DNA of 64,000 nt from the NCBI GenBank assembly GCA_002839825.1, contig PGYU01000004.1, positions 62,001 through 126,000 on the forward strand, in the 5' to 3' direction. The notes under the pieces are model-generated. The model saw only the letters and a program-made list of their open reading frames with translations, did not search any database and was not told the DNA's origin. The position numbers and the translations under genes are program-made. How positions within the stretch are numbered: position 1 is the stretch's first letter; every line of letters begins with the position of its first letter. Origin of the DNA: Ignavibacteriae bacterium HGW-Ignavibacteriae-1 (lineage in GTDB: Bacteria > Bacteroidota > Ignavibacteria > Kapaibacteriales > UBA2268). Shown here piece after piece: positions 10,886 to 40,758 of the stretch.

Positions 10886-11037
10886 AATAAAACCTTTATT
10901 GTTATTTGATTATGTAAATTATTATAACTACTAATTTAAAACTATCTGAATTTGAAATCAAATTAAATTACAATTTGCTAACACTTTCGTAAATTTGTAC
11001 TATATATTTTTGTATTTTCTTGAAAATAAGGTATAAA

Positions 11038-12363
11038 ATGTCATACGAAATAGCAGTAATCGGAACCGGATATGTCGGATTAGTAACCGGAACATGTTTC
11101 GCTTCCACAGGAATTAAAGTAATTTGCATTGATATAGACGAAAAAAAGGTAGAAATGATGCAAAATGGGAAATGTCCAATTTTCGAACCCGGACTTGAAC
11201 CTTTGCTCGTGAAAAATTTACGTGACGGGAGATTGCATTTTTCAACAAATTTGGTTGATGCTGTCGAAAATGCCTCAGTCATTTTCCTATGTTTACCCAC
11301 TCCGCCCAACGAAGACGGTTCGGCAGATTTGCAACATGTTCAAAAAGTTGCATCGGATATAGCACTAATTATTAAAAATAAGAATCTTACCGAAAACAAA
11401 ATTATCGTGAACAAGAGCACAGTACCCGTAGGAACTTCGGATGTTGTGAAAGCAATTTTTGATGAAATTTTGCCTGATAACAAGGTGACAGTTGCCTCGA
11501 ACCCTGAATTTTTGCGAGAAGGATTTGCCGTCGAGGACGCTATGAAGCCGGAAAGAATTGTTATTGGTACTTCCGACGAATACACTGCTAAGACTTTACG
11601 CGACTTGTACCAACCTTTTGTTCGTTCCGGCAACCCGATTTATATAATGGATGAAAAAAGCTCTGAATTGACAAAATATGCAGCAAATGCTTTTCTTGCT
11701 ACTAAGATTTCGTTCATGAATGACCTCTCGGCATATTGCGAAGCAGTTGGCGCTGATATTGAAAAAATCAGAATCGGCATTGGTTCAGATACTCGCATCG
11801 GCAAACGATTTTTGTTTGCAGGAATTGGATATGGTGGCTCCTGTTTCCCGAAAGATGTTCGTGCTTTGATGTATTCAGCCCAAGCAAAAGGCATCGAGTT
11901 GGATATAGTCAAGGCTTCTTACGAAGTTAATGACAAGCAAATCCGCCGATTTTTCGATACAATTTCCAATAGATTTGGCGGTAAACTCGCAGGGTTACGA
12001 TTTGCATTGTGGGGTTTGGCATTCAAACCCAACACTGATGACACGCGCGAAGCTCCTGCTCACAGGTTAATCGAATTATTGCTCGGAAAAGGTGCCGAAA
12101 TCATTGCTTTCGACCCGGAAGCCATTGAAAATACGAAAGTAGTTTTTGGTGATAAAATTGCTTATTCAAGCAATATGTACGATGCTCTGGAAGGTACCGA
12201 TGCTTTGGTGATTGCTACCGAATGGAACGAATTTAGAAATCCTGATTTGGAGAAAATCAGTTCCACCTTGAAGCAAAATATAATTTTCGACGGTAGGAAT
12301 CTATTCGAGCCGGCTTATATGAAAGAACATGGATTTGAGTATTTCTGCATCGGACGAAAGTAA
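11038..12363 (+). CDS. ugd: UDP-glucose 6-dehydrogenase
   Basis: A 441-residue enzyme that oxidises UDP-glucose to UDP-glucuronate with two NAD, supplying precursors for surface polysaccharides. Visible are the N-terminal NAD-binding IGTGYVGLVTG, the central helix region (SELTKYAANAFLATKISFMND) and the catalytic cysteine Cys269 in YGGSCFPKD. The C-terminal UDP-binding part includes LWGLAFKPNTDDTREAP. The ATG at 11038 is preferred because AAGG precedes it and the residues from the upstream TTG (11020) are not family-like. No glycan genes are adjacent. Confidence 0.96.
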   Translation: MSYEIAVIGTGYVGLVTGTCFASTGIKVICIDIDEKKVEMMQNGKCPIFEPGLEPLLVKNLRDGRLHFSTNLVDAVENASVIFLCLPTPPNEDGSADLQHVQKVASDIALIIKNKNLTENKIIVNKSTVPVGTSDVVKAIFDEILPDNKVTVASNPEFLREGFAVEDAMKPERIVIGTSDEYTAKTLRDLYQPFVRSGNPIYIMDEKSSELTKYAANAFLATKISFMNDLSAYCEAVGADIEKIRIGIGSDTRIGKRFLFAGIGYGGSCFPKDVRALMYSAQAKGIELDIVKASYEVNDKQIRRFFDTISNRFGGKLAGLRFALWGLAFKPNTDDTREAPAHRLIELLLGKGAEIIAFDPEAIENTKVVFGDKIAYSSNMYDALEGTDALVIATEWNEFRNPDLEKISSTLKQNIIFDGRNLFEPAYMKEHGFEYFCIGRK

Positions 12364-12443
12364 TTCGGGAATTCCCGGTGACTCTCAGACTACGGAGCAA
12401 GAGCACAAATATGTAGAAGCTAAGGATTTGACCATTGTTGAGT

Positions 12444-12749
12444 ATTGCAAATCCTAAAATGGAATTGCTATATGGTTTGCAATTGACGGCTTCTATCAAA
12501 CTTGGCAGGAATGTTTGTTAGAGACATTCATTGGCTTGGTAGAGGCTCTGTGGTCGAATTCGACAATTAGTTAGCGAGCCGGTTGACGTGTTGATTAATG
12601 GCAAAAAAGTAGCCGATGGCGAAGTCGTTTTTGTGGACAAACATTTCGGTAAAAAGCAAGTGCGTGATTGGCGGAATCAAACCAAAGCAGGCGATAATTT
12701 ATCATTCAAAGCTTTTATCAGAAACGTACTCAAAAAGCAAAGCAATTAG
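12444..12749 (+). pseudogene. Frameshifted remnant of a FliN-like (SpoA domain) flagellar switch or type III protein
   Basis: Three pieces in different frames line up with the SpoA domain of FliN/YscQ proteins. 12444-12518 gives NPKMELLYGLQLTASIKLGR; 12520-12564 gives RDIHWLGRGSVVEFD; 12564-12749 gives QLVSEPVDVLINGKKVADG followed by EVVFVDKHFG. Family members read like LGRT..vrDiLeLgpGSVVELDklagEPVdilVNgklIAkGEVVVidenFG, so the order and spacing fit. A stop (12519-12521) plus a frameshift, and a 1-nt deletion at about 12564, break the gene. A 12-bp palindrome cgggaattcccg (12366-12377) lies just after ugd. The end overlaps the convergent phosphodiesterase stop. No other flagellar gene is in the window. 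Confidence 0.7.
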
Positions 12750-13504
12750 GCTCTGATTTCTTCCAACCATTTGAAAATCTTACCCGGATAATTTGTCGCT
12801 ACTGCTCTGACTTTGTACTCCAAAGCTATTTCGAGATTTGCTTTAGTATCAACCGAATAAACGCCAGTGAAAAGTTCTTCCCGAATTGCCGATTCCATCA
12901 ATTCTTTAGTTAGTTCCTCCACCGAGAAAATGAATACTTCGCATTGAGTTAATTCTTTGATTTCTTTCGGAGTCTTGTCGTCACCGGGAATTTTGATTGC
13001 AGCAGTTTTGATATTCGGATTCAATTGTTTCAAATCCCTCAGAACTTTGTAATTGAAGGAGCCGAATATTGTGCGCTCCAGATTGTTATATTCCTCGATT
13101 AATTCAATCAAATGCTTCATATTTGCTTGAATTTTGTCACCTGTCCAAGTTTTGATTTCAATCATTAGCAGAGCCTTGTCGCGAACCAATTCCAAGACTT
13201 CCTGCAACAGTGGAATCTTTTCTCCTGCATAAATACTGCCATACGCCGAACCAATATCAATATCTTTGATTTCATCGAAATTCAATTCCGAGATACGTTT
13301 GATATGTCCCGGTGGCACAAAATCGTGATAAACGACAAATTTATTATCAGCGGTGATTTGAATATCAATTTCGACCATCTTCGCACCGGATTCTATTGCT
13401 TGACGGAAAGCCGAAATTGTATTTTCGGGGGCTGTCCCTGATGAGCCTCTGTGTGCTACTACGAGAAGTTCGCCGGATTTTGATACATCTAATAAACTAT
13501 TCAT
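12746..13504 (-). CDS. Glycerophosphodiester phosphodiesterase
   Basis: A 252-residue TIM-barrel GDPD enzyme that cleaves glycerophosphodiesters from phospholipid turnover to glycerol-3-phosphate and an alcohol. Visible are VAHRGSSGTAPENTISAF (catalytic His, Arg and the ENT metal ligand), MVEIDIQIT (metal-binding Glu and Asp) and VVYHDFVPPG (second catalytic His). No signal peptide, so it is probably cytoplasmic like UgpQ rather than periplasmic GlpQ. The ATG at 13504 is chosen over a TTG at 13525 that adds seven unsupported residues. Confidence 0.9.
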   Translation of the reverse strand: MNSLLDVSKSGELLVVAHRGSSGTAPENTISAFRQAIESGAKMVEIDIQITADNKFVVYHDFVPPGHIKRISELNFDEIKDIDIGSAYGSIYAGEKIPLLQEVLELVRDKALLMIEIKTWTGDKIQANMKHLIELIEEYNNLERTIFGSFNYKVLRDLKQLNPNIKTAAIKIPGDDKTPKEIKELTQCEVFIFSVEELTKELMESAIREELFTGVYSVDTKANLEIALEYKVRAVATNYPGKIFKWLEEIRA

Positions 13505-13659
13505 GTATTTTTGAAATTTGAACAAACTTAAATATATATAAATTAAAGCACATAACTAAGAAAAATATTTTTGTTTTTGAAAATATCTTTCTTGATTTAT
13601 AAAGAAAATTGTGTTAAATTAACATTTAGAATTTGTGAATTTTTTAAAATGAGGTTATT

Positions 13660-14104: not shown

Positions 14105-14178
14105 GTCGTCATTCTATCCAGCAGGCGAAGAATCAAGCTTTCTAAAAAACATGGATTCCTCACTTCGTTCAGAATGAC
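14105..14178. repeat. Interspersed inverted-repeat element (gtcattct ... agaatgac)
   Basis: gtcattct (14108-14115) and agaatgac (14171-14178) are inverted ends. Inside, gaagaatc and ggattcctcacttcgttc form an imperfect stem. The sequence resembles a short repeat seen in many Bacteroidota and Chlorobi genomes (recalled, not searched). No coding potential. Confidence 0.55.
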
Positions 14179-14304
14179 AAAACAAATCATATTTGAACTA
14201 TTCTTGAGTAAATCTTATATTTTTTTGAGTATTGCACTAATCTTATTTTCTCATGTGGAAAAAAAGTGATAGTTTTATAAGTTAGATTAATACAAGAAAG
14301 AAAA

Positions 14305-38053: not shown

Positions 38054-39088
38054 ATGAAAATATTTACTCTTTTAATATTAATTGCACTAATTGCCTCGTG
38101 CAGTGCGAAAGAAAAAGTCGTCAATCCCATTGATGAGAACCGTTCTTTCATGATTTCTACCGATGTCGGTGGATATTCGCTCAAGGGTATTAATTTACCA
38201 TCCGGAAATATTCACGAGGAAGATTACTATCGTAAATTTTTCGCTGAAGAAGCTAAAAACAAAATAACTGCCATCGCCGATAATGGAATGGATGTTTTTT
38301 TCTTTGTGCCGGAGGATATGAAAATTCTTGTGGTAGGGAAGTCGGACATGCTGATGAAAGCAGTTATTGATTTCGCTCCATACGGATTAAAACCGGTCTC
38401 TATTACATTTGCAAATGCAACTGACGCATATGTACTCAACCAAGAAAGCAATGATGTATCAATAGTTGACCTTACCGTTTACGAAGTGGCAAGAAATATA
38501 AAATGTGGCATTCAACCAGTCGGGATAAGCTCCTACGGCAATCAAGTTTATATTACAGACAAAGTTGCCAACCTAGTTCACGTAATTGACACTCGCACGA
38601 GAGCAGTTGAAGAATCAATACCAGTGCATCCCGGTCCCACTTTCATTCGATTCACCGACGATGGCAAAAGCGCGATTGTGATATCATCAGGGGTTAGCGG
38701 CACCGAAGAAAATCCTATGAAAGACAATGCTATGGTGACATATATTGATGTGGAAACAAGAACTGTGTCGTCAACACTTGATTTAGGCTTTGGGCAAATG
38801 GCAGCTCTCGACCAATATCCGCGGGGATTTGAAGTTACCGAAACGGAATGGGGATTTGTGCAAACTCAAATGGGGCTATTCAGATTGGATCTGCGAAATC
38901 CCGATAAAATCGCTCTGATGTTGAGAATCGCTTACGACGGAATTGCATATAATCGTGTAAATTCTGAACTGATACTATATACTTCAGGCGATAATTCCGA
39001 AATTTCCTTAGCTGATGATAGTACGGCAGAAATTTTTCAAAAGGGTAAGTTCGCCGGTAAAATTTTCGCAATTTATCCCAATAATTGA
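38054..39088 (+). CDS. Lipoprotein with YncE-like beta-propeller
   Basis: A 344-residue protein with a lipoprotein signal ending LIASC (Cys16 would be lipidated). The rest resembles surface-protein propellers of the YncE type: VLNQESNDVSIVDLTVYEVARNIKCGIQPVGIS and VYITDKVANLVHVIDTRTRAVEESIPVHPGPTFIRF. Such propellers usually bind proteins or other partners; no catalytic site is seen. Its TGA overlaps the ATG of the following phosphatase gene by 1 nt, so the two are translationally coupled. Confidence 0.85.
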   Translation: MKIFTLLILIALIASCSAKEKVVNPIDENRSFMISTDVGGYSLKGINLPSGNIHEEDYYRKFFAEEAKNKITAIADNGMDVFFFVPEDMKILVVGKSDMLMKAVIDFAPYGLKPVSITFANATDAYVLNQESNDVSIVDLTVYEVARNIKCGIQPVGISSYGNQVYITDKVANLVHVIDTRTRAVEESIPVHPGPTFIRFTDDGKSAIVISSGVSGTEENPMKDNAMVTYIDVETRTVSSTLDLGFGQMAALDQYPRGFEVTETEWGFVQTQMGLFRLDLRNPDKIALMLRIAYDGIAYNRVNSELILYTSGDNSEISLADDSTAEIFQKGKFAGKIFAIYPNN

Positions 39089-40758
39089 TGGCTAATTCGA
39101 ACTTTATAAATCTGAGTTCTTTGCTCGAACTTAGCGCCAAACTCTACGAAAGTGGCGACAAATCATCAATCTTGAATATTTCCCTTCTAAGTTTGATGGG
39201 CAAATTACTCATCACAAGCGGCGTTATCCTCTCGAACGAATCGGGTAGACTAGTTCCGATTATCCAAAAAGGTCACACAGCGCTCGATTTTTATAAGCTG
39301 ATGAATAAATTCAATCCCGACAAATATGTTTCAATCACCGAATCCACCGAATTAGACAGTATAAGATACATAATTCCAATTCGCAAACAAGATAAACTCT
39401 ATGCTTTGATTTGTTTGAGCAACCCGCTGATACCTCATGATTTGAGCGAAGATGAGAAAAAGTACATCGAACTATTGTCCTCGATTACTGCTAATGCTAT
39501 CAATAATTCATTTATGCTCGAATCCTACAAACGCGAAAGAAGCGTCGCAGAGCGGCGTAGTCAGCTTCTTTCGGCATTGTACGAAGTGAGTCGCGATTTT
39601 GGGAGTTTGCTCTCCCACGATGAAATTATCAAAACGCTCTCTTTGACCGTGATGGGACAATTGACCGTTTCAAAATTTGCCGTTTTTATCGAAAACGACA
39701 AGAAGCAATTCCATAAAATTATTGATAGAATCGGACTGGAAGTTTCCGAATCTCTATTGCGCGAACTGCTTGTATGCGAGACTGCGACTCCAATCGAAAA
39801 ATCTGATTTGAGCCACGAAGCCTATCAATTCTGTGTCAAAAAGCATATCGCTGTGATTTCGCCGATGAAAGTGCAGGGGAACAAAAGCGGAGTTTTGCTG
39901 ATTGGCAATCGGATGAACGAGCAACCTTTTAATTCCGATAATTTGATTTTTATCGAGGCAATTGGCAATACTGCAATGGCAGCGCTCGAAAATGAAAGGC
40001 TATTTACGGAAGAAATCGAGAAAAAACGGCTTGAAAGCGAGATTTCGATTGCTCTCGAAATTCAGAAAAATTTATTGCCCAAAAGCCCACCTGTCACAAA
40101 GAATTTCGATATTTTTGGCTTTTCCTTGCCAACTTATCAGGTTGGGGGAGACTATTTCGATTATATCAAAATTGACGAAAATCGCCTTTTGCTTGCTATT
40201 GCTGATGTTTCGGGGAAAGGAATCCCTGCATCTTTGATTATGGCAAACACTCAGGCGGCATTGAGAGTGCTCGCACACAACCAAATTGACCCAGTTTCGA
40301 TTGCAAATCAAATTAATTCATTACTTTACGAAAACACAAGTCCCGACAAGTTTGTTACTTGCTTTTTTGGTGTGCTCGACCAAACTAATAACCAGTTCAC
40401 GTATTTAAATGCGGGGCACAATCCACCATATTTGTTCAAATCCGACAATACGATGCACGAATTGCACGAAGGCGGGCTGATACTGGGTTTTATGGAGCAT
40501 GATTTTGGCTATAACACCGGAAATATTGTTTTGGAAAGTGGCGATTTAATCATAATGTTCACCGACGGCGTGACCGAGTCGCACAATGAAAAAAAAGAGG
40601 AATATGGCGAAGAAAGGCTGATTAATCTAATCAAGGAAGTGAAGCACCTCAATTCATTCGATATCGCTCAAGCAATTTCAGCCGATGTAAAGAAATTTGC
40701 CGGTAATGCACCCCAATTCGATGATATTACAACTATAGTGTTGAAATGTTTGGGGTAA
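39088..40758 (+). CDS. GAF-type sensor with SpoIIE/PP2C phosphatase domain
   Basis: A 556-residue cytoplasmic protein. Two N-terminal GAF-like regions (about 10-145 and 165-300) are followed by a short coiled linker (EKKRLESEISIALEIQKNLLP) and a SpoIIE-type PP2C domain. The latter has YQVGGDYFDYIKI and LLAIADVSGKGIPASLIMA (metal-binding Asp residues), NAGHNPPYLF, and IIMFTDGVTESHN. RsbU-like phosphatases activate partner-switching cascades by dephosphorylating anti-anti-sigma proteins. No STAS or kinase gene is close. Coupled to the upstream lipoprotein gene. Confidence 0.92.
   Translation: MANSNFINLSSLLELSAKLYESGDKSSILNISLLSLMGKLLITSGVILSNESGRLVPIIQKGHTALDFYKLMNKFNPDKYVSITESTELDSIRYIIPIRKQDKLYALICLSNPLIPHDLSEDEKKYIELLSSITANAINNSFMLESYKRERSVAERRSQLLSALYEVSRDFGSLLSHDEIIKTLSLTVMGQLTVSKFAVFIENDKKQFHKIIDRIGLEVSESLLRELLVCETATPIEKSDLSHEAYQFCVKKHIAVISPMKVQGNKSGVLLIGNRMNEQPFNSDNLIFIEAIGNTAMAALENERLFTEEIEKKRLESEISIALEIQKNLLPKSPPVTKNFDIFGFSLPTYQVGGDYFDYIKIDENRLLLAIADVSGKGIPASLIMANTQAALRVLAHNQIDPVSIANQINSLLYENTSPDKFVTCFFGVLDQTNNQFTYLNAGHNPPYLFKSDNTMHELHEGGLILGFMEHDFGYNTGNIVLESGDLIIMFTDGVTESHNEKKEEYGEERLINLIKEVKHLNSFDIAQAISADVKKFAGNAPQFDDITTIVLKCLG

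Follow-up and report, generated by a model that had tools for sequence, protein, structure and literature searches.

That a single lineage of a flagellated group can lose its flagellar genes is known from Xanthomonas fuscans 4834-R, in which, according to the excerpted part of its report, one 33 kb deletion removed 34 contiguous flagellar genes and an insertion sequence stands in their place (PMC3826837). For Candidatus Kapabacteria MAG Ch6, genes for flagellar motility and chemotaxis have been reported (PMC7509429), and the flagellar genes of a related hot-spring bacterium do not lie in a single cluster (PMC6338057), both as given in excerpts of those papers. A literature search covering titles and the beginnings of abstracts returned no description of flagellar decay in Kapabacteria. 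The flagellar gene decay described here is clear but ordinary, in that lineage-specific flagellar loss is already known elsewhere. As in the excerpted account of X. fuscans 4834-R, flagellar genes were lost in one lineage of a flagellated group; unlike the single large deletion described there, the losses in the present genome are spread over four dispersed loci with at least 12 junctions, and no insertion sequence was noticed at these.

The window is the whole stretch of DNA that was analyzed, 64,000 nucleotides corresponding to G000:C43:62001-126000, where G000 denotes the genome to which it belongs (3,227,209 bases in 43 contigs, 98.84% complete). The nearest named loci carrying its ugd gene are 58 to 69% identical and come from metagenome-assembled genomes (MAGs) titled, for example, Candidatus Kapabacteria, Ignavibacteria or Bacteroidota, which suggests a Kapabacteria-like bacterium. 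By these nearest named relatives it would belong to the same broad group as MAG Ch6, for which the excerpt reports flagellar motility genes, whereas G000 has lost the flagellum.

In the window, 382 bases without any long reading frame separate ugd (11020-12363, forward strand; an intact ORF of 447 aa) from the convergent GDPD gene (12746-13525, reverse strand, with its stop at 12746; an intact ORF of 259 aa). The names, for a nucleotide-sugar dehydrogenase and a glycerophosphodiester phosphodiesterase-like protein, stem from the first reading of the sequence. Both flanking genes appear in the two other genomes of the genus, G001 and G002, where the order is ugd, fliL, fliM, fliN, fliO, GDPD and where the four G002 proteins between the flanks match FliL, FliM, SpoA and FliO in Pfam. 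The intact orthologue that the first-pass annotation had proposed to seek between ugd and GDPD in relatives is thus present in both. The ugd product of the window shares 95% (G002) and 92% (G001) amino acid identity with the copies that precede fliL, and the dN/dS values relative to G002 are 0.056 for ugd and 0.043 for GDPD.

The SpoA family (PF01052) matched 101 of the 198 genomes searched and 46 of the 53 other genomes of the same family (G000 not counted). Among 56 ugd loci compared with the G002 proteins (16 plus the first 40 of 80 from a second listing), fliM follows ugd in seven, namely in G001, G002, G007 and the named-MAG loci L120, L121, L128 and L131, a fraction that means little since many loci had only 1.5 kb of flank or lay outside the group. 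What the distribution shows is that the ugd-fliM arrangement is old.

Comparison with G002 resolved the gap into three ordered fragments, all on the forward strand. The first junction (12370-12373, four unassigned bases between the blastn end points 12369 and 12374) leads from the 3' region of ugd into the interior of fliL, of which 78 of 612 bp are left (12374-12451; 85.9% identity; blastn 1e-21, tblastn 2.8e-7). The second junction is one unassigned base (12452, between end points 12451 and 12453), and the corresponding deletion took the end of fliL, the whole of fliM (0 of 1038 bp left) and the start of fliN. The fliN fragment that follows (12453-12651; 84.9% identity; blastn 2e-62, tblastn 3.4e-20) retains most of the SpoA domain in broken frame, with six gap columns in its alignment. 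At the third junction the blastn end points overlap, so that 2 bp (12650-12651) are common to both sides; this deletion took the end of fliN and most of fliO. The remaining 3' end of fliO comprises 100 of 390 bp (12650-12749; 85% identity; tblastn 3.4e-13) and lies inside a blastn alignment (3e-136) that continues into GDPD; its stop codon overlaps that of GDPD, as it does in G002. The damage to fliN therefore consists of large deletions on either side plus small length changes, which leave about 199 to 205 of 432 bp in several frames and no complete open frame for a C-ring protein. The gap thus has the same place and the same order as the G001/G002 operon, with 85 to 86% DNA identity to G002, but lacks fliM and most of fliL, fliN and fliO, and it reads as a deletion scar of fliL-fliM-fliN-fliO for which at least three deletions are needed.

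The first-pass annotation had described a broken SpoA-domain gene, and three-frame translation confirms that LGR, RDIHWLGRGSVVEFD and SEPVDVLINGKKVADGEVVFVDKHFG are present, in different frames. Its reading of all three frames as SpoA pieces holds for 12453-12651, which is fliN, and fails for the third frame, which is partly fliO: the 53-aa frame at 12588-12749 runs from the last part of the SpoA piece into the fliO remnant. It had also placed no other flagellar gene within 64 kb, a statement corrected by the fliL and fliO fragments that share the gap with fliN. A PF01052 scan of the whole of G000 found the relic in the window as its sole place (E 3.5e-4, 22.3 bits), the score falling under the cut-off of 23.8 because the frame is broken. 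The last frame alone matched PF01052 with E 1.1e-4; searched singly, neither the fliL piece nor either of the two preceding fliN pieces gave a Pfam match at E 1. The alignment to the intact neighboring genome lies far beyond chance.

The single SpoA match in G000 might also be a SpoA copy that is stray or came by horizontal transfer, or be left over from a non-flagellar type III secretion system; a stray copy and a type III apparatus had been raised in the initial annotation. The relic nevertheless lies exactly where both same-genus genomes have the flagellar operon, which is its ancestral place, has fliL and fliO fragments on either side, and shares 85% DNA identity with fliN of the same genus. 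The intact G002 orthologue, moreover, passes the cut-off for FliN (TIGR02480; 97.4 bits, cut-off 84.05) and stays below that for SctQ (TIGR02551; 58 bits, cut-off 100.8), so that a stray copy or a secretion system component is exceedingly improbable.

Whole-genome profile searches with FlhA (PF00771), Flg_bbr_C (PF06429), FliG_C (PF01706) and Flagellin_N (PF00669) gave no match in G000, whereas all four families match in G001 and G002. With no SpoA, FlhA, FliG, flagellin or rod/hook match elsewhere in the genome and a relic at the ancestral operon place, the earlier suggestion of a lineage that lost motility is borne out. A search for pilT, with type IV pili in mind as a substitute for the flagellum, found nothing in G000 or in seven of the eight other genomes searched, a result that does not discriminate; the control matched 13 of 14 genomes, so that the family is not specific at E 0.001.

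Three further flagellar loci of G002 were compared with G000 after their flanks had been found there. Of fliP-fliQ-fliR-flhB-flhA, contig C33 has kept 54 bp from fliP and 22 bp from flhA; of the stretch from flgF to motA, C4 has kept 83 bp, all from motA. On C23, 52 bp survive from two flagellin genes, flgE has disappeared, fliK retains 636 of 2004 bp and fliG 61 bp, and the remainder to flgB is gone; flgD is still open at full length (690 bp, 229 aa) and matches FlgD in Pfam. Taken together, the four loci retain 1,981 of the 30,420 bp present in G002, in 10 of 36 genes, with flgD the only one of full length. Some of the 36 gene names come from Pfam, NCBIfam or genome searches; others, for example fliI, fliF, fliE, flgJ and flgB, were named by reading gene order and sequence, and some genes are unnamed, among them u130, which matches TIGR02530 (a flagellar biosynthesis family), and u233, which matches MgtE_N. 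The count excludes another G002 flagellin at the end of contig C24, which was not traced in G000.

Two observations were made beside these scars. The motA scar is adjoined by a gene for a 701-aa BNR/sortilin-like protein with a type IX secretion tail (G000:C4:262114-264219; L112), which has no counterpart at the same place in G002. On the same contig, G000:C4:254567-262131 is 94.6% identical to G002 (mtaB dS 0.12), compared with an identity of about 91% and a dS of about 0.4 elsewhere, a hint of recent recombination.

Across the four loci, five of the 12 junctions share 1, 2, 2, 4 and 12 bases and the other seven contain 1 to 33 unassigned bases, junction positions being alignment end points and hence fuzzy. 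Illegitimate recombination is the probable origin of the deletions. Contig ends are distant from all four scars, by about 18 kb or more. Relatives carry intact copies and the scar is known here from assembled contigs alone, so one may ask whether an assembly or binning error has produced it, the gene being intact in the real organism. Misassembly would, however, need to strike four contigs and yield ordered, diverged fragments at four loci, five flagellar families have no match elsewhere although the genome is 98.84% complete, and such errors do not yield relics that evolve evenly over codon positions. Even with the small frame breaks mended the operon would stay lost, since nothing is left of fliM or of parts of fliL, fliN and fliO. 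In principle, some flagellar locus could be absent from an assembly of 43 contigs at this completeness; as an account of the scar, we judge assembly or binning error to be very improbable.

Loss of constraint was assessed by polarizing changes with G001 as the sole outgroup, whose synonymous distance is large (often 0.7-1.0), so that some changes are miscounted. In the pooled fliL, fliN, fliO and fliK relics (1008 aligned bp), changes at codon positions 1/2/3 number 24/28/28 on the own branch and 3/3/23 on the G002 branch (Fisher p 6e-5); leaving out fliK, the counts are 10/8/10 versus 2/0/12 (p 0.003). Seven intact flanking genes show 51/18/281 on the own branch and 32/15/277 on the G002 branch. 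Relic substitutions are thus even over codon positions, as in unconstrained DNA, and coding constraint was lost on the own branch. The relics have 52 changes at positions 1 and 2 in about 672 sites and the flanks 281 at third positions in about 3,332; these rates are near each other, which entails, as a rough estimate, that most of the branch passed without constraint. Flagellar loss would then have come early on this branch.

These counts also bear on whether the scar still encodes something useful, such as a short peptide from the frame at 12588-12749, which is open and overlaps the GDPD stop. On the own branch, changes in the fliN and fliO pieces, counted in the former frames, fall at all three codon positions (5/3/5 and 2/2/3), and the frame at 12588-12749 fuses parts of two unrelated proteins; we regard a useful product as extremely unlikely.

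The unbroken flgD is relaxed as well, with 12/11/15 changes on the own branch versus 3/1/13 on the G002 branch (p 0.019) and a dN/dS of 0.255, compared with 0.064 between the flagellated siblings. An open frame of full length, which pure decay would tend to break, speaks against this reading: if flgD has drifted for as long as fliK, the lack of any length change over its 690 bp is somewhat surprising. A DnaJ-domain gene directly downstream of flhA (G000:C33:18967-19257; L111) has 26 own-branch changes versus 4 on the G002 branch and a dN/dS of 0.33 versus 0.07 between the siblings; it may have served the flagellum and may now be decaying too.

The ancestral order and the fragments have been observed, as have the genome-wide absence, the erosion of three more loci and the lost codon-position bias; on these observations recent flagellar loss by many local deletions is well supported. 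We are nearly certain that the gap is the scar of a flagellar operon, left after the flagellum became dispensable on the branch of this species and local deletions were followed by unconstrained drift. On this reading, fliL-fliM-fliN-fliO lay between ugd and GDPD in the ancestor of the genus. Once the flagellum was dispensable on the branch to this species, local deletions with little or no shared end sequence would have taken parts of every flagellar locus examined, at least three of them at the ugd-GDPD locus, where fliM would have gone wholly and fliL, fliN and fliO for the most part. The leftover flagellar DNA would since drift without constraint, and the cell is probably non-motile by flagella.

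The genome offers a well-preserved intermediate of flagellar loss, with two flagellated genomes of the same genus for comparison, in a group known here almost only from metagenome assemblies. It illustrates how dispersed flagellar loci erode by many small deletions while neighboring genes are spared, and how a flagellum-dependent gene (flgD, now relaxed) can be told apart from independent neighbors such as the chemosensory cluster. Automatic annotation would call flgD and might miss the absence of the flagellum.

That cluster adjoins the lost flgF locus (G000:C4:268877-277951; L112/L113) and comprises, in order, a receptor, CheW, CheR-TPR, a second CheW, CheA with a receiver domain, CheB and a receiver-SpoIIE protein. 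Apart from the receptor gene, all six are equal in length between G000 and G002, with dN/dS of 0.03-0.11, and codon-position changes of 28/18/193 and 25/21/180 give equal patterns on the two branches; the cluster is intact under purifying selection. Its likeness to Wsp systems is limited to layout. Leftover flagellar chemotaxis and then a Wsp system with diguanylate cyclase output were considered and rejected, Pfam showing a receiver-SpoIIE output. CheR-TPR fusions occur mostly in chemosensory pathways with alternative cellular functions, according to the excerpted part of one report (PMC3447774), and retention of the cluster therefore does not imply motility. No second CheA was found among the matches listed for G000, G001 and G002 (E to about 9e-20; best five candidates per genome), and the flagellated siblings may have no other CheA array. 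Somewhat short of an even chance, in our estimate, is the reading as a Wsp-like array whose output is a partner-switching phosphatase and which, being under full purifying selection after loss of the flagellum, would be flagellum-independent. Within the window, a GAF-SpoIIE phosphatase gene (39085-40758) is a possible further part of a partner-switching pathway.

Elsewhere in the family, profile searches with the five flagellar families found no match in G009, G027, G028 and G042, and SpoA-bearing genomes exist within the genera of G028 and G042. At least three separate losses in the family, including that in G000, are likely, unless genes are missing from those assemblies (95% and 93% complete). 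In G014, G025 and G033, by contrast, the lack of SpoA was not accepted as a sign of loss, since FlhA, FliG, flagellin and rod genes are present there.

Two minor features concern repeated DNA. A 79-bp stretch before murE in the window (14107-14185) occurs once in G000, but its alignment to G002 covers two copies side by side. Short dispersed repeats of about 50-250 bp are numerous in G000, at C33:17589-18200 and many other places, and are shared with the C2 region of G002 near 115.6 kb and 120 kb.
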